A DNA stretch of 64,000 nt from a virus, in the IMG/VR virus record IMGVR_UViG_3300032288_005778, positions 1-64,000 of that record. One strand, given 5' to 3'. Below the pieces are notes generated by a model. The model was not told where the DNA came from, ran no database searches, and was given only the letters and a program-made list of their open reading frames with translations. Below are positions 1 through 49,847 of this stretch, one piece after another (the first letter of the stretch is position 1; every line of letters begins with the position of its first letter). Made by a program: the position numbers and the translations under genes.

Positions 1-6
1 AATGAC

Positions 7-280
7 ATGAACAATTCAAACAGTACCATTACCAAGGAAAATGACATGAATAAATTACACAGTACCATTACCAAGGAAAATGACATGAATAAATTACACA
101 GTACCATTACCAAGGAGAACGATATGAATAAATTACACAGTACCATTACCAAGGAGAACGATATGAATAACTTAAACAGTACCATTACCAAGGAGAACGA
201 TATGAGTAACTTAAACAACATCATAATGGAAAACGATATGAATAATTCAAATCAGTTAAACAACATCATAATGGAGAATA
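7..280 (+). repeat. 39-bp tandem repeats carrying SD plus ATG
   Basis: Five 39-bp units begin at ATGs at 7, 46, 85, 124 and 163, followed by two diverged units at 202 and 238. Each encodes a 13-residue block of the STITKENDM type. Later units contain AAGGAG six bases before the next in-frame ATG, so every unit carries its own translation start signal. The array may continue to the left of the window. Confidence 0.9.
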
Positions 281-3003
281 ACGTGAATAATTCAAATCAT
301 GCTATTAATATAGCGCAATCAAATAACAATTGTCAAGACATTTTTGAACAATTTAAGAAAAAAGTTTTTACGGATTTTACTACAGGGAGTGGAATTGATC
401 CGGCACTATTTGAAAATGCTATTGAGTTTCATCGAGAATGCGAATGGACTGATGGAATGGATGCTTTGTACCCTATTCATGAGATCTTGGGATGGAAAAA
501 AACCCGATTCACACACAATATTTCCAAGAATGAATTATTAGGAGCTTTCCTGAAAAATGAGGATGGGAGTATTTGGCAGGTGATTGTCAACATCCCATCT
601 AAGCACAGGGAGTATTCATATTTTGCACCCAAGGGAATTGGGGACAAACCATACTTACCACCCGTGCCTAAGTCCATCAGGGAAAAAATTAATAAATCGT
701 GGGGAACTGATATTCCTATGAGCGGTAGTTTCTGGGATGCTATTAAAGAAGTGCCAGAAGTGCCTAGATTTTTAACAGAGGGTGGTAAAAAGGCATTGTC
801 AGGTTTAAGCACTGGGTTATGCGCGATCGCTCTTTATGGATGTTCCTGTGGGGGGAAAAAAGAGATTAGCCCAGCCCTTGAGCAATTTATTGGAGACGGA
901 TCTGCTATGATCCTGGCAATGGACAGAGACACCAAAAAAACAGCCGTCAAGGCTGTTCTGAAAGCTAATAGAAGATTTCACTATCTATTAAAAGATAGTG
1001 AGACCTATCTATTGGAAATGCGGTGGAAACCTGAACATGGTAAGGGTTTAGATGATTTAATCGCCAAAAACCCCAAGGAACTAAAAAAATCCCTCAAAGA
1101 GGTAAAAACGAGGTTGGACAAACTAAAACTTGAATTACACTTCCAGGAGAAGCGGAAAATCCCTACTCCTGATATTTTGGCAGCGGAAATCGCCGAAGAA
1201 TACCGAGATATTCTTGCATTCAACAATGCCAGTTTGCGTTGGATGCGCTACCAAGCAGACAGCCCAGGCGTTTGGGCCGTGGAGACTGATCAGTTCATTG
1301 CCAGTGCGGTGATGAACATTATTGAAGGCAAAGGATACACTGGATACGGTGGTGATGGGTACATCACTAACGTTACCAGAATGCTTAGGCATCATTTGAT
1401 TCAGCGTACTTGGGTAGAGCGATCGCCTAAAGAGCTACTCCCATTTAGAAATGGTGTCTTAGAAATTCAAACTGGAAGACTGATGCCTCATGCTCCTGGA
1501 TACAGACTGACATGGCAACTACCCAGGGAATATGACAGAGAGGCTAAAAACTGGGATAACATCAATGAGTTTTTAGAACATTTAAGCGGTGGCAACCAGC
1601 AGATAAAAGATCTGTTAATGTGCTATTGCAACGCCGTCATCAAGGGTCGCTCGGACTTACAGAAGTTTTTGCACTTAATTGGCTTGGGTGGCACGGGTAA
1701 AGGTACATTTACCCGGTTACTCGTATCTTTAATCGGTTCTCAGAACGTGCATACCAGTACCCTTGATGATTGGTGTAACAATAACTTTGAAGCTGCTAAC
1801 GCTTACCAGAAGCGGCTTGTGTTATTTCCTGATGAAGACAAGGCAACTGGAAAACTAGGAAAATTCCTCTCTTTAACCGGGGAGGATTTGCTACGTGCTG
1901 AGAACAAAGGACAAAAAGCATTTAGCTACCGCTACGACGGCATGGTAGTGGTCTGCTCTAACTTACCTGTATTTGCAGGTGACAGTGCTAGTCGGGTTAA
2001 GCGTCGGGTAATCACAGTGCCATGCAACAATACAGTCGGTATAGCCAAGCGGAAAAACCTTGAGGAATTGTTTGAGCCGGAATTAGCAGCTTTCACTAAT
2101 CACGTTCTGAGTTTTGACGACGACTATGTACGCAAGGTGTTGTCTGGTATCCAAGAGATACCAGAATGCACCCTTGAGTTCTGGGTTAACCGAATGCGTG
2201 TAGACTCGTTAGCTGACTGGTTAAACGAGAAGGTGATTTATGATCCTACAGCCATGACCCCTGTAGGCAGTAACAAGAATGAAGGTGCTGATGGTGGTCT
2301 CATTAAGACCCTCTTCGGCAGCTACTCTAGGCACTGTGCAGAGACAGGTAGCCAGGCCAAAGCGTCTAAAACCTTTAGCCCTGACTTAATTGAGTTGTGC
2401 AACTCAGTTCTGGGCTGGGGAGTGAAGCACAAGGCCACCAATACCGGCAAATTTATTGTTGGGTTGCGTTTGCGTCAAGTCGGTTTAGACGACGAAATTC
2501 CCACTCACGAACTACTTTTGTCTAGTTCCTTGACACATGACGGGAAAAGTTTAGAAGGCAGTGACGGGTCAGAAGTCTTGCTAGATAAGGCTTTTGAAGG
2601 TAGTGACGAGAACTCTTATACTCCAATGGAAATTAGAAATAATAATTCTAGCCTCCCTTCTCCCATATCCCCAATAGAGGATAGGAATATAGATCCTATA
2701 TATAGAGGGGATGTAGTATTGGATCTCCCGTCACCTTCCCCAAACCCTACCCAGGACAATGGTTCTGACCCGTCACCCCTCCTGGAAGAGAACCCATCAC
2801 CCGGTGATGTGGTTGAATTTTTTGTGGATGACCGGGCAAAAGAACTCAACTGCCCCATCCCAGGACCAATTAGAGAGGTCAACGAAGCTGGTTATGTAAT
2901 TAGTGTTTTCCAAAAAAATCCTGATGGAACAAGAGTCAGAAAGTTTTTATCCATTCCTGCTCGACTTGTTGTCCGCACATTAAAGCGAGCTACTAAGGTT
3001 TAG
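7..3003 (+). CDS. DUF3854/D5-type primase-helicase with tandem-repeat N-terminus
   Basis: Replication primase-helicase of the plasmid/phage P4 type. After a repetitive N-terminus (about residues 1-95) comes a TOPRIM-like DUF3854 region (about 240-400, with a MDRDTK acidic motif near 305). A D5_N-like segment follows, then a superfamily 3 helicase core with Walker A GLGGTGKGT near residue 559, Walker B-like LVLFPDED near 605 and a downstream arginine-rich sensor region near 660. The last 170 residues are Ser/Pro/Asp-rich and probably disordered. The reading frame is open to the left edge and the N-terminal repeats contain several equivalent ATGs, so the true start is uncertain. It probably unwinds and primes the element's own DNA. 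A decayed copy of its 3' part lies at 37710-37976 on the other strand. Confidence 0.85.
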   Translation: MNNSNSTITKENDMNKLHSTITKENDMNKLHSTITKENDMNKLHSTITKENDMNNLNSTITKENDMSNLNNIIMENDMNNSNQLNNIIMENNVNNSNHAINIAQSNNNCQDIFEQFKKKVFTDFTTGSGIDPALFENAIEFHRECEWTDGMDALYPIHEILGWKKTRFTHNISKNELLGAFLKNEDGSIWQVIVNIPSKHREYSYFAPKGIGDKPYLPPVPKSIREKINKSWGTDIPMSGSFWDAIKEVPEVPRFLTEGGKKALSGLSTGLCAIALYGCSCGGKKEISPALEQFIGDGSAMILAMDRDTKKTAVKAVLKANRRFHYLLKDSETYLLEMRWKPEHGKGLDDLIAKNPKELKKSLKEVKTRLDKLKLELHFQEKRKIPTPDILAAEIAEEYRDILAFNNASLRWMRYQADSPGVWAVETDQFIASAVMNIIEGKGYTGYGGDGYITNVTRMLRHHLIQRTWVERSPKELLPFRNGVLEIQTGRLMPHAPGYRLTWQLPREYDREAKNWDNINEFLEHLSGGNQQIKDLLMCYCNAVIKGRSDLQKFLHLIGLGGTGKGTFTRLLVSLIGSQNVHTSTLDDWCNNNFEAANAYQKRLVLFPDEDKATGKLGKFLSLTGEDLLRAENKGQKAFSYRYDGMVVVCSNLPVFAGDSASRVKRRVITVPCNNTVGIAKRKNLEELFEPELAAFTNHVLSFDDDYVRKVLSGIQEIPECTLEFWVNRMRVDSLADWLNEKVIYDPTAMTPVGSNKNEGADGGLIKTLFGSYSRHCAETGSQAKASKTFSPDLIELCNSVLGWGVKHKATNTGKFIVGLRLRQVGLDDEIPTHELLLSSSLTHDGKSLEGSDGSEVLLDKAFEGSDENSYTPMEIRNNNSSLPSPISPIEDRNIDPIYRGDVVLDLPSPSPNPTQDNGSDPSPLLEENPSPGDVVEFFVDDRAKELNCPIPGPIREVNEAGYVISVFQKNPDGTRVRKFLSIPARLVVRTLKRATKV

Positions 3004-3107: not shown

Positions 3108-3734
3108 ATGAATGGTAAGTTAATTGTTTTTGAAGGGGTAGAGGGTTGTGGGAAAACTACCCAGATGCACCTTTGCTCCCAATGGCTAGAAAGTTTGAGC
3201 ATACCTGTAGTGCTAACTCGTGAACCGGGAGGAACAGAACTGGGGGAAAGCTTGCGAGAGCTATTGTTGTCAAAGTCACCACATAAACCAATGAGTGAAG
3301 TTACAGAACTTCTATTGTATGCTGCTGACAGAGCGCAACATATCCAAGAGGAACTAAAACCAAACTTGGCCATGGGAAAATATATTCTGTGCGATCGCTA
3401 TACAGACTCTACTATTGCCTACCAAGGTTATGGCAGGGGCTTAGACATGAACTTGATCAATAATCTCAATCAGATTGCCACGGGAGGTTTACTGAGTAAT
3501 GTAACTATTTGGTTGGACGTGGATGTAGAGGTAGGTTTACTGCGTAAGCGCGGACAAGCCAAATTAGATCGCATTGAACAGGAGACAATAACTTTTCACC
3601 GTCGGGTACAAGCGGGTTATGCAGATTTGTACTTATCTCATCCATCTTCAACTATCCGAGTAGATGGTAGTGGTAGCCAAGAAGTTGTACAACTTCTTGT
3701 ACAAGAGATTTTGCAGAAACACTTGTCTTTATAA
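3108..3734 (+). CDS. tmk: Thymidylate kinase
   Basis: Phosphorylates dTMP to dTDP with ATP in the cytosol, the last committed step of dTTP supply. The P-loop GVEGCGKTTQ is at the N-terminus, the DRYTDST motif lies about 90 residues in, and an Arg-rich lid follows (LRKRGQAKLDR). About 208 residues is the normal family length. The ATG at 3108 is preferred; a GTG at 3090 would add six residues and neither start has a clear ribosome binding site. It follows the primase by about 100 bp. With the dCTP deaminase (12117) and the ThyA-like protein (23685) it makes a nucleotide-supply set. Confidence 0.95.
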   Translation: MNGKLIVFEGVEGCGKTTQMHLCSQWLESLSIPVVLTREPGGTELGESLRELLLSKSPHKPMSEVTELLLYAADRAQHIQEELKPNLAMGKYILCDRYTDSTIAYQGYGRGLDMNLINNLNQIATGGLLSNVTIWLDVDVEVGLLRKRGQAKLDRIEQETITFHRRVQAGYADLYLSHPSSTIRVDGSGSQEVVQLLVQEILQKHLSL

Positions 3735-3753
3735 ATATTTTTTCTAAAACCTA

Positions 3754-3782
3754 TTGACAATAAATAATAGATAGACTATACT
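3754..3782 (+). promoter_or_regulatory. Sigma-70 type promoter
   Basis: TTGACA (3754-3759) and TATACT (3777-3782) are separated by 17 bp. The sequence between them resembles the promoters at 4741-4770 and 4922-4951, including an ATAGACTAT palindrome at the -10. It drives the small acidic gene at 3810. Confidence 0.8.
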
Positions 3783-3809
3783 GATAATATCAACATGAGA
3801 TAAACAACC

Positions 3810-3977
3810 ATGAAATATAGATGGAGAAATGGAAAAGCCCAAGCGATCGCTTACGTGCCTGCGCTAGGCAGGTGTGCGGTCGTTAAAGAAGCCAGTAGCA
3901 TCCACGAACTCTACGGCGACGAAGATGAAGACGAAGATGAAGAAGACAGTGATGAAGAAGACGATGACGAATATTAA
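3810..3977 (+). CDS. Small acidic protein
   Basis: A 55-residue ORF with a basic N-terminus (MKYRWRNGK) and a C-terminus made almost wholly of Asp and Glu ending DDDEY. It has its own strong promoter and is followed directly by an intrinsic terminator, so it is a complete monocistronic unit. A HIP1 site lies inside the gene. The acidic tail could mimic DNA, but no family is recognised and no function is assigned. Confidence 0.65.
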   Translation: MKYRWRNGKAQAIAYVPALGRCAVVKEASSIHELYGDEDEDEDEEDSDEEDDDEY

Positions 3978-4431: not shown

Positions 4432-4707
4432 TTAAAATGGGATGTCGTCAGGGTCGCCCGACTTTTCGTATTCCGCCCAGTAAAAGGCATAGACTTCTTG
4501 GGCGTTTTTGATATACTCTGTATAAATAACTGGGACTGAGATTTCTAATTGAGAAATCTCCCAAGTAAATTCTATTTTTCCGTATTCAAGGTTCGACCCT
4601 TGGATAACCTCAATTTTAAGTGTAGGTAGCTTTACGAATTTGATGACAGTCAATCGCTTCCAGTACAGTTGGAAGTTGAGTTCACATAAATTAAATAGGT
4701 CTGTCAT
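4432..4707 (-). CDS. Small protein with SSB-like acidic tip
   Basis: A 91-residue protein of unrecognised family. It ends GDPDDIPF, which closely matches the C-terminal tip of bacterial SSB (DDDIPF), the peptide that recruits SSB partner proteins; the rest does not look like an OB fold at sight. Translation starts at the ATG at 4707, behind AGGAAACAAG. A longer frame reading MTINSEIDY is only the -35 region of the promoter at 4741-4770 read as codons. It is transcribed alone and terminated at 4386. Confidence 0.7.
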   Translation of the reverse strand: MTDLFNLCELNFQLYWKRLTVIKFVKLPTLKIEVIQGSNLEYGKIEFTWEISQLEISVPVIYTEYIKNAQEVYAFYWAEYEKSGDPDDIPF

Positions 4708-4740
4708 TTGCTTGTTTCCTTGTTTTTTGTTGATACTCTT

Positions 4741-4770
4741 AATATAGTCTATTTCACTATTTATTGTCAA
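4741..4770 (-). promoter_or_regulatory. Sigma-70 type promoter
   Basis: On the minus strand TTGACA (4765-4770) and TATATT (4741-4746) are 18 bp apart. The sequence from -35 to -10 is nearly identical to the plus-strand promoter at 4922, so the two genes share one control element. Confidence 0.8.
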
Positions 4771-4785
4771 GTGGTTTTAGAAAAT

Positions 4786-4921
4786 ATTTTTTAAATTCTT
4801 AAAACCCTTGATTTACAAGAGTTTGAGGGTTGTTGAGGTGCAATAGTCTAGCGATCGCCCAAGTCCCCAACCGTAAAATAGTTACACAAAGATATTTTTA
4901 AAAGTTCAGTACATAAACCTG
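4786..4921. repeat. Duplicated intergenic segment, copy 1
   Basis: This AT-rich spacer (TTTACAAGAGTT..., HIP1 site, CCGTAAAATAG, AAAAGTTCAGTACAT) recurs at 5760-5940 with the same order of landmarks. It lies between divergent transcription units and upstream of a small gene in both places. Confidence 0.75.
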
Positions 4922-4951
4922 TTGACAATAAATAGTGAAATAGACTATAGT
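4922..4951 (+). promoter_or_regulatory. Sigma-70 type promoter
   Basis: TTGACA (4922-4927) and TATAGT (4946-4951) are 18 bp apart. It is the twin of the minus-strand promoter at 4741-4770 and drives the gene at 4985. Confidence 0.8.
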
Positions 4952-4984
4952 AGTTACATACACAGGAAACGGGGAGACAGACAA

Positions 4985-5410
4985 ATGAAATTTACAATCA
5001 ACTTTCAAATCCGCACTATCAAGCACCAAATAAAAGCTACGTTAAAACTTATTGCAGACGGCATTAAATCTTATGTTGACCAGTTGGTTATTTTAGAGGG
5101 TGATTTAGAAAAATTAGAAGCATCTCTAGCACCTTCGTTAGCTGCATTGGGTAAAATCACAAAAAACATGATTAAGTCCGTGAAGGGCAATATTCACTTT
5201 ACATCGGTAGAAATTAAGGCTATAAAGTCTATTCTTGAATCTGGTCTTTTAGGTGAAGGACATACTCAATTTAGAGTAGGAAGAAAAGATTATTATTTCT
5301 TAGGAATTGAAGGAAAAGAAATAAAAGTGAGAATTGGTGAAAACAGAACACGCGATTACAGCAATGTCATGGATTATGTTTGCAGCAATGGTGTAGTAAC
5401 TCTTAAATAA
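4985..5410 (+). CDS. Hypothetical protein, IRTIKHQI N-terminal family
   Basis: A 141-residue protein that starts behind GGGGAG. Its N-terminal 45 residues (FQIRTIKHQIKATLK, VDQLVILEGDLEKLE) match the protein at 38649 (FKIRTVKHQIQACLR, VDRLIVLESRLEEL), so the helical N-terminal module is shared while the C-terminal parts differ. The C-terminal half here is short beta-rich sequence. Function unknown. The upstream frame beginning MTINSEIDY is promoter sequence, not protein. Confidence 0.7.
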   Translation: MKFTINFQIRTIKHQIKATLKLIADGIKSYVDQLVILEGDLEKLEASLAPSLAALGKITKNMIKSVKGNIHFTSVEIKAIKSILESGLLGEGHTQFRVGRKDYYFLGIEGKEIKVRIGENRTRDYSNVMDYVCSNGVVTLK

Positions 5411-5480
5411 ATATTTTTTAAAACTACTTGACAATAAACAAATAGTAAGATAGTCTATATATAAACAAAAATAAAAGAGT

Positions 5481-9711: not shown

Positions 9712-9838
9712 TGTTTCTACTCCCGTGCAATGATTCCTTATTTAACAAGTGGGGATGAATCAATCTGTATAAACTTTGCCCGCGTTCAATAGCGATCGCA
9801 CCATGTCCAGTAATATCAAAAACTTTAAATATCTTCAT
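9704..9838 (-). CDS. Small ORF overlapping the terminase-like gene
   Basis: A 44-residue frame, starting with MKIFKVFDITGHGAIAIERG, that begins 14 nt before the stop of the gene at 9825. The sequence looks like real beta-rich protein and contains a HIP1 site. Longer upstream readings consist only of the out-of-frame Asp/Glu repeat and are discarded. See the neighbouring ORF at 9544 for a possible frameshift. Confidence 0.4.
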   Translation of the reverse strand: MKIFKVFDITGHGAIAIERGQSLYRLIHPHLLNKESLHGSRNID

Positions 9839-10490
9839 CTTCATCTTCATCTTCATCTTCATCACCATGATCATTAAAATTATCTTTGTCATCATCAACA
9901 ACTACGTGATCAACTGAAATATTGGGATGATCGGCATCTCTCTTGCTTGGATCTATAATCTCATACCCTTCTCCTCTCACTTTCTGGGTGGCTGCATTCA
10001 TGTCGACGTGGTATCTGAGACCTAATATCTCACTGATAGCATCTGTCGAGCGTTTAAGCGCCTGTGACAAATTATTAATTTCTACTGAGGTATGTTTGGC
10101 GATCGCTTTTTTCTTGTATTCATCAGGTAGTTTTAAGTCCTGGGCTAGTTGAGCAACTTTTTGACTTATTAATCTTGCAATATAATTTCGGGTCATTTCA
10201 TGCACCTGGTAGTTTTCCGCAACTATTGACGAAAATTCGTTAGATATCTCAGTAGATACCTTTTCAATTATTTTTTTTCGCGTTGTTGTACCGAGTGATG
10301 ATTGAAAATGTATTCTCTGTTGATGCCAGTTGCGACCCTCAATTAATTCTGCCGACCACTTTTGAATAGTGCTAGGAGCACGCCCCGAAAGCTTTGCCAC
10401 GCCCCTAATTCCTATGTCGTCATCACATTCAACGTAACGACGGCGACACTGAGTTTTTGACCACGGCTTAGGCAGTTTTTCCCACTTCAT
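9825..10490 (-). CDS. HTH protein, possible terminase small subunit
   Basis: A 221-residue protein. The N-terminus (about residues 18-55) has a helix-turn-helix (GIRGVAKLSGRAPSTIQKWS), followed by a long helical middle and an acidic C-terminal tail of alternating Glu and Asp. HTH plus helical oligomerisation region plus acidic tail is the usual layout of phage terminase small subunits, which recognise the packaging site. No large subunit is in the window, so this is an inference. It heads an overlapping series that ends with the C5 methylase. Confidence 0.45.
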   Translation of the reverse strand: MKWEKLPKPWSKTQCRRRYVECDDDIGIRGVAKLSGRAPSTIQKWSAELIEGRNWHQQRIHFQSSLGTTTRKKIIEKVSTEISNEFSSIVAENYQVHEMTRNYIARLISQKVAQLAQDLKLPDEYKKKAIAKHTSVEINNLSQALKRSTDAISEILGLRYHVDMNAATQKVRGEGYEIIDPSKRDADHPNISVDHVVVDDDKDNFNDHGDEDEDEDEDEDI

Positions 10491-48729: not shown

Positions 48730-48786
48730 ATGAATCAAAATCAAAAAATTGTCAACAGACTGTTGCACGTCCGTAGAGGTGTGTAA
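48730..48786 (+). CDS. Leader peptide coupled to the initiator gene
   Basis: An 18-residue frame (MNQNQKIVNRLLHVRRGV) ending TAATG, where the ATG is the start of the initiator at 48786. It lies behind a nested-hairpin leader (GCCA/TGGC enclosing CTGTT/AGCAG, about 48659-48691) and TAGTATAAT promoter element. Translational coupling is the likely role. Confidence 0.45.
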   Translation: MNQNQKIVNRLLHVRRGV

Positions 48787-49847
48787 TGGGGGAAACAATA
48801 AGAGTCCAGCATTCCAAGAACTATACTGTAATAGCCAACGCGGCTATTAGAGATACGCGGTTGAGCTTCAAAGCGCGTGGACTACACCACTTGTTACTTT
48901 CTTATCCAGATGGATGGAAAGTCAGTATAGAACATCTGTCTACACAGTCCATAATGGACGGCGAAACAGCCGTGAAAACAGGTCTTCAGGAACTAGAAAG
49001 ACTTGGGTACTTAACCCGTGAACAAGTGCGAGAAAAGGGGAAAATCGTGGGATACGAGTCCACGATCAGAGAAGTACCGAGCGAAAATCCGCCTGCGCCC
49101 AAAAGCAGGCGAGGTAAACCACAAGTGGAAAATCCACAAGTGGAAAATCCACAAGTGGAAAATCCACAAGCGGAAAATCCACAAGCGGAAAATCCACAAG
49201 CGGAAAATCCAGTACATAATAAATACTTATTCCAAGAAGTATTTAAGAAAGAAATATCTAAAGAAAGCACAGAAGAGGATTTAAGCGGACAAGAGTTAAC
49301 TGGACAAGAGTTAAACCTAAACCACTCTAGACCTTCTGATTTAAAAGGAAGTCTTTCCCATAAACAGATATCCCCTCTAGAGGGTCAATTTGCGCCCGCC
49401 GCGCCGGGGCGTCTTGACAAAGCGAATATTGCTGAACCGTTTGGAAGACCGCGCAAGACGGCTAAAGAAATAGCCTGGGAATGGCTACCAGATGGGCCGT
49501 GGAAGAAAGAAGGACAACTGGACAATGAGTTTTGGCAATGGCTCGCGCTGCAGTGGATGTCGCAGTTTGCCACTGACATCCACCAGGCGAGGGCTAACGT
49601 CTACAGCCACTTCAAAAAAGACAGTAACAACCTAGAAATCCGATGGAAGGAATATTCCATCAAAACTAAAAAAGAAGTGGCTTTAGTCCCTCTTCCTGAA
49701 GCTGTATTGATATGGCAGCCAGGGCAGCACCAAAGAAGATGGGAGCAGTACATCAACTGCAAAAGCCTAGAAGAATTTTACCAACAATGCAGTTGGAATC
49801 AAGCGTATTTGGAGTACGCATTAATCAATCAACCCAGTTTTGATTAA
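48786..49847 (+). CDS. O-like replication initiator with internal iterons
   Basis: A 353-residue protein. The N-terminal 100 residues are a winged-helix domain of the phage/plasmid replication type (LSFKARGLHHLLLSYPDGWK, LGYLTREQVR). Then a linker of six PQVENP/PQAENP repeats, and a C-terminal helical domain (WQWLALQWMSQFATDIHQAR) that could load helicase. It is followed by dnaB, the lambda O-P or initiator-helicase order. The 15-bp repeats coding for the linker could be the replication origin, as in the lambda O gene. Confidence 0.7.
   Translation: MGETIRVQHSKNYTVIANAAIRDTRLSFKARGLHHLLLSYPDGWKVSIEHLSTQSIMDGETAVKTGLQELERLGYLTREQVREKGKIVGYESTIREVPSENPPAPKSRRGKPQVENPQVENPQVENPQAENPQAENPQAENPVHNKYLFQEVFKKEISKESTEEDLSGQELTGQELNLNHSRPSDLKGSLSHKQISPLEGQFAPAAPGRLDKANIAEPFGRPRKTAKEIAWEWLPDGPWKKEGQLDNEFWQWLALQWMSQFATDIHQARANVYSHFKKDSNNLEIRWKEYSIKTKKEVALVPLPEAVLIWQPGQHQRRWEQYINCKSLEEFYQQCSWNQAYLEYALINQPSFD
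49119..49208 (+). repeat. Six 15-bp iterons inside the initiator gene
   Basis: Six in-frame copies of CCACAAGTGGAAAAT (three exact, three with GCG for GTG). They encode PQVEN/PQAEN repeats and are a candidate origin by analogy with lambda. Confidence 0.85.

Follow-up and report, generated by a model that had tools for sequence, protein, structure and literature searches.

Hypervariable in-frame tandem repeats at the head of a viral primase gene, interpreted as an amplified translation-initiation region

Based on the collective evidence assembled here, the tandem repeats at the 5' end of a viral primase gene are understood as hypervariable, in-frame copies of the gene's own translation-initiation region, comprising the SD, spacer, start codon and first ~10 codons, a reading to which we assign a probability of about 0.6. 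The part established from sequence comparison comprises the homology between leader and unit, the strictly in-frame change in length and the confinement of turnover to the array. In the mechanism proposed, slippage or unequal recombination would add and remove units, and such change would be tolerated because its steps are whole codons and the encoded N/T-rich tail precedes the conserved domains. Redundant start sites may be provided by several units, in which case the primase would form as a ladder of proteins with N-termini 11-15 residues apart.

The primase gene and its array at the record edge

The window, that is, the whole 64-kb stretch of DNA analysed, opens a linear virus record of 82,388 bp, hence base 1 is a contig end. 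Because the assembly cuts the array at this base, the true start of the primase gene is absent from the record; for the same reason, the ATG at position 7 has no visible SD. The open reading frame at 7-3003 (998 codons) is followed by a thymidylate kinase gene. Its product is a P4/D5-type phage-plasmid primase, for which the Pfam profiles DUF3854 (85.9 bits; cut-off 23), DUF5906 (58.5; 27.6) and D5_N (38.7; 22.4) exceed their curated cut-offs, all matching at residues numbered at least 301. AlphaFold modelling of the N-terminal 298 amino acids gave a mean pLDDT of 32, the repeats being without predicted structure. The features are as follows.

7..3003, + strand: reading frame encoding the P4/D5-type primase, its 5' end lost at the contig edge (ORF list and Pfam)
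1..299, + strand: in-frame tandem array, read as copied translation-initiation regions, cut at base 1 (TRF and eight complete relatives)
34..48, + strand: SD-start junction AAGGAA-AATGAC-ATG (sequence; SD energy -5.2)
73..87, + strand: SD-start junction AAGGAA-AATGAC-ATG (sequence; SD energy -5.2)
112..126, + strand: SD-start junction AAGGAG-AACGAT-ATG (sequence; SD energy -8.3, SD plus opening -5.2)
151..165, + strand: SD-start junction AAGGAG-AACGAT-ATG (sequence; SD plus opening -4.7)
190..204, + strand: SD-start junction AAGGAG-AACGAT-ATG (sequence; SD plus opening -3.5)
226..240, + strand: weakened junction ATGGAA-AACGAT-ATG (sequence; SD energy -3.3)
271..285, + strand: variant junction ATGGAG-AATAAC-GTG (sequence; SD energy -6.4)

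TRF assigns a period of 39 bp to positions 4-217 (5.5 copies, 94% match) and one of 45 bp to 211-299 (2 copies), and every array start is in frame with the open reading frame. With at most three mismatches allowed, the core AAGGAGAAYGAYATGAAYAA is matched seven times in the 64 kb, always within 34-290, compared to 0.03 matches expected by chance. An earlier note on this DNA had described 39-bp units, each with AAGGA(G/A), six further bases and an ATG in one shared frame, at the start of the primase gene. Five junctions, with SDs starting at 34, 73, 112, 151 and 190, agree with it, as does the common frame; the final two units, however, measure 36 and 45 nt, the weaker cores ATGGAA (226) and ATGGAG (271) replace AAGGAR in them, and the last start codon is GTG. 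The array does lie at the 5' end of the gene, but its relatives place the conserved start upstream of the record edge.

A hydrophobic antisense open reading frame at 3-224 was rejected as a gene, as it represents the array repeats read in reverse. Elsewhere in the window, a promoter-like element, TTGACA ... TATACT, occurs in dispersed direct and inverted copies (3729-3815, 4704-4795, 4897-4988 and 5403-5441), and translation across this element accounts for the open reading frames that start with MTINSEIDY. At 3915-3971 and 9831-9874 lie simple repeats of the GATGAA type, opposed to each other, which would encode acidic (Asp/Glu) runs.

Array turnover among relatives and the origin of the units

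The primase recurs at 95-96% identity in eight IMG/VR contigs, of which seven have the complete primase body and one (L009) only its first third. All eight hold the full 5' region, in which a common start, AAGGATAAGACC-ATG-AAC, is followed by an in-frame array of 60-134 codons (copy numbers from metagenomic contigs may still be wrong in their exact values). The array differs in nearly all relatives, those of L002 and L009 being identical; L007, for instance, has 5 unit starts and L005 has 11. As the earlier note had anticipated, unit number varies; number and composition both do so strongly, the changes in length always being multiples of three. Uniform 39-bp units that each carry an SD did not hold up: unit lengths are 33, 36, 39, 42 or 45 nt, several older units in the relatives are without an SD (GTAGAA, ATCGAA, ACAAAG) and one start has become ATA. 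The 2,700 nt after the array contain zero indels in the seven relatives with full coverage, with 93-94% DNA identity and a dN/dS of ~0.09. With a body free of indels next to an array of variable length, turnover is confined to the array, and the combination of whole-codon copy-number variation among close relatives with stable flanks is that of an in-frame coding VNTR.

The record ends inside the array and all sequences are metagenomic contigs, so that repeats, or a repeat number, arising from short-read misassembly must be considered. We regard such an artefact as extremely improbable: a complete array, bordered by unique sequence at either end, is present in each of the eight other contigs, the same array was recovered in L002 and L009, all arrays are in frame, and the units carry distinguishing bases.

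Regarding the origin of the units, an ungapped alignment of the 5'-UTR start site with the second unit gives 27 identities over 33 positions, and 12 of these 33 positions precede the first ATG. The best match of any other 33-mer in the virus anchored on ATG or GTG (4,179 compared) is 21/33. Given this resemblance of the leader start site to the second unit, the array is understood as repeated in-frame copying of the gene's native translation-initiation region; in our reading, a region that included the 5'-UTR SD would have been duplicated and then passed through further rounds. The four closest full-length homologues, from Nostocales (51% identity), have ~22-61 amino acids of unconserved N-terminal sequence. 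The array is absent from these cellular homologues and from the plasmid homologues compared, and thus appears to have arisen where length was tolerated and to be confined, so far, to this virus group. A profile scan for more viral relatives found none beyond the known ones, a DNA search against annotated phages gave zero matches, and exact-pattern scans with unit and leader returned the eight relatives plus scattered single matches that were taken as chance. Judged from the sequences, the hypervariable in-frame amplification of the translation-initiation region is real.

Upstream of the start, three consecutive hairpins are predicted in the primase leader (six leaders folded; about 4567-4656 in L002), with a third loop that varies among relatives (GGGGAAC versus AGTCCTC); no Rfam family was found in this leader.

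The repeats had also been suggested to be iterons, in which case the array would act at the DNA level, bound by a replication initiator, and would mark an origin inside the primase gene. Tandem DNA repeats within a replication gene are consistent with that role, and lambda O offers a precedent for an origin inside a gene. Iterons are regularly spaced, conserved repeats, whereas the units here are irregularly spaced at 33-45 nt and variable in their core, which the rest of the window lacks. Moreover, an O-like replication initiator gene at 48786-49847 has its own array, a 15-bp direct repeat of 6.2 copies at 49119-49211, and its counterpart in a relative (L063, about 2130-2210) differs in having an unrelated repeat of ~21 bp at a similar place. 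The suggestion is thereby weakened to one we consider very improbable. By analogy with lambda O, the O-like gene is the better candidate for an in-gene origin.

Predicted initiation within the array and selection on it

The array presents in-frame internal start codons with SDs at functional distance, and many units are predicted to be competent, in line with the earlier suggestion that internal units are potential starts. Of 9 testable window starts, 6 have an SD energy at or below -5 kcal/mol, compared to 37 of 322 internal ATGs of the virus (binomial P 1.4e-4), and resampling of synonymous codons attains the observed count of strong SDs in ~2% of runs, although both tests overstate significance inasmuch as the units share ancestry and are not independent. 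When the energy of opening is added to that of the SD, the best internal array sites score -3.5 to -6.3, compared to a median of +3.9 (10th percentile -1.2) for 47 gene starts and of +10.0 for 110 internal ATGs. Several internal sites thus outscore ~90% of the virus's gene starts, which makes internal initiation plausible; the conserved first start scores -1.9 to +0.3 in four relatives. On these predictions, we consider initiation inside the array at a measurable level to be quite probable. The host is likely a cyanobacterium, given an excess of HIP1 (GCGATCGC; 32 copies in the whole window versus 0.14 expected) together with cyanobacterial homologues. A caveat to initiation within the array is that Cyanobacteria, the likely host phylum, have a small fraction of SD genes and make little use of the SD (PMC5397173). 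In the virus itself, a strong SD is present at 33 of 93 leftmost starts of open reading frames, as delimited by simple ORF calling rather than gene curation.

Whether the array is maintained as an initiation device or as a peptide is approached through its pattern of variation. The distance between SD and start is constant despite differing spacers, and length changes only outside that interval. The Lys codon is AAG in 43 of 43 SD contexts compared to 3 of 25 other array positions; the residue of the first SD codon varies (K, M, V), and the GGA core is mostly kept. In an ordinary coding minisatellite, any selection on the N-terminal peptide repeat (~MNNLNSTITKEND) would be for a protein tail, and SD and ATG would ride along because K-E-N-D-M happens to be encoded by AAGGAGAAYGAYATG, a descendant of the start site. 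Several features fit this explanation: some SDs have decayed, several core codons show wobble-only changes, and synonymous changes dominate among 11 distinct 39-nt units, whose pN/pS of 0.19 suggests protein-level constraint on the peptide, a figure that is weak because the independent changes are few. A scan for triple SD-ATG stretches across viral and bacterial contigs likewise gave no enrichment of functional spacing (39 stretches across viruses, versus 60 at the non-functional spacing used as control), clustering at gene starts was absent in both spacing sets, and most of the long in-frame arrays among the matches listed are peptide repeats with K-E/D-x-x-M. On the other hand, the unit peptides vary by class (KENT, KEYQ, KEND, MEND) and yet SD and spacing persist, and the first copy of the motif sits in the untranslated leader. 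Taken together, the minisatellite explanation appears unlikely, though of some weight, compared to amplification of the translation-initiation region.

As judged from these patterns, the evidence for a selected multi-start device is mixed and leaves adaptive tuning unproven. It is doubtful that selection for more, or for tuned, initiation maintains the array; it would otherwise be a tolerated by-product. The fullest form of the idea, in which the slippage-varied number of tandem in-frame starts sets the translation rate as a frame-safe rheostat and generates a ladder of N-terminal proteoforms, is rather improbable.

Relation to known systems

If the internal starts work, a phage replication gene would have its expression tuned, with the frame preserved, by how many copies of a coding repeat it contains, a repeat-based variation unlike on/off phase variation. 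At minimum, the array exemplifies a start site seeding a fast-evolving coding repeat, and it explains the failure of start-codon annotation and of assembly at this place. A second, independent array of 39-bp in-frame start sites (AAGGAGGACAAG-ATG) was found in IMGVR_UViG_3300037311_000166 (L065 1-123; L092 13953-14074), an unrelated virus with an unrelated gene and unit, and indicates that such arrays can arise more than once. It sits at a true gene start, the first copy overlapping the stop codon of the upstream gene, and the record has the array at each of its two ends. A gene further downstream, whose product has a similar N-terminus, carries just one start site.

Direct repeats near start codons are also represented by the TAACTGA heptamers of Beggiatoaceae and Cyanobacteria, for which a translational role was proposed (PMC4679880); unlike the primase units, these are mostly intergenic, have little SD character and do not copy a start site in frame. 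No described case of a tandem in-frame start-site array was found in the open-access literature.

The primase-helicase gene 4A/4B of phage T7 has one internal in-frame start, the use of which is established and which removes a functional domain. The likeness consists in a replication gene with an SD and a start inside the frame, from which co-terminal proteins could arise; here, by contrast, there are ~4-10 further, putative starts, arranged in tandem and upstream of all recognised domains. In-frame coding minisatellites (VNTRs) occur in bacteria and phages, and the primase array shares with them whole-codon tandem units, a copy number that differs between close relatives, and stable flanks. 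The distinction is that the primase unit appears to be the gene's own start site, untranslated SD included, with each copy a potential start. Coding VNTRs and internal in-frame starts are thus kinds already known, and the primase array is best viewed, from its sequence, as a variant of both.
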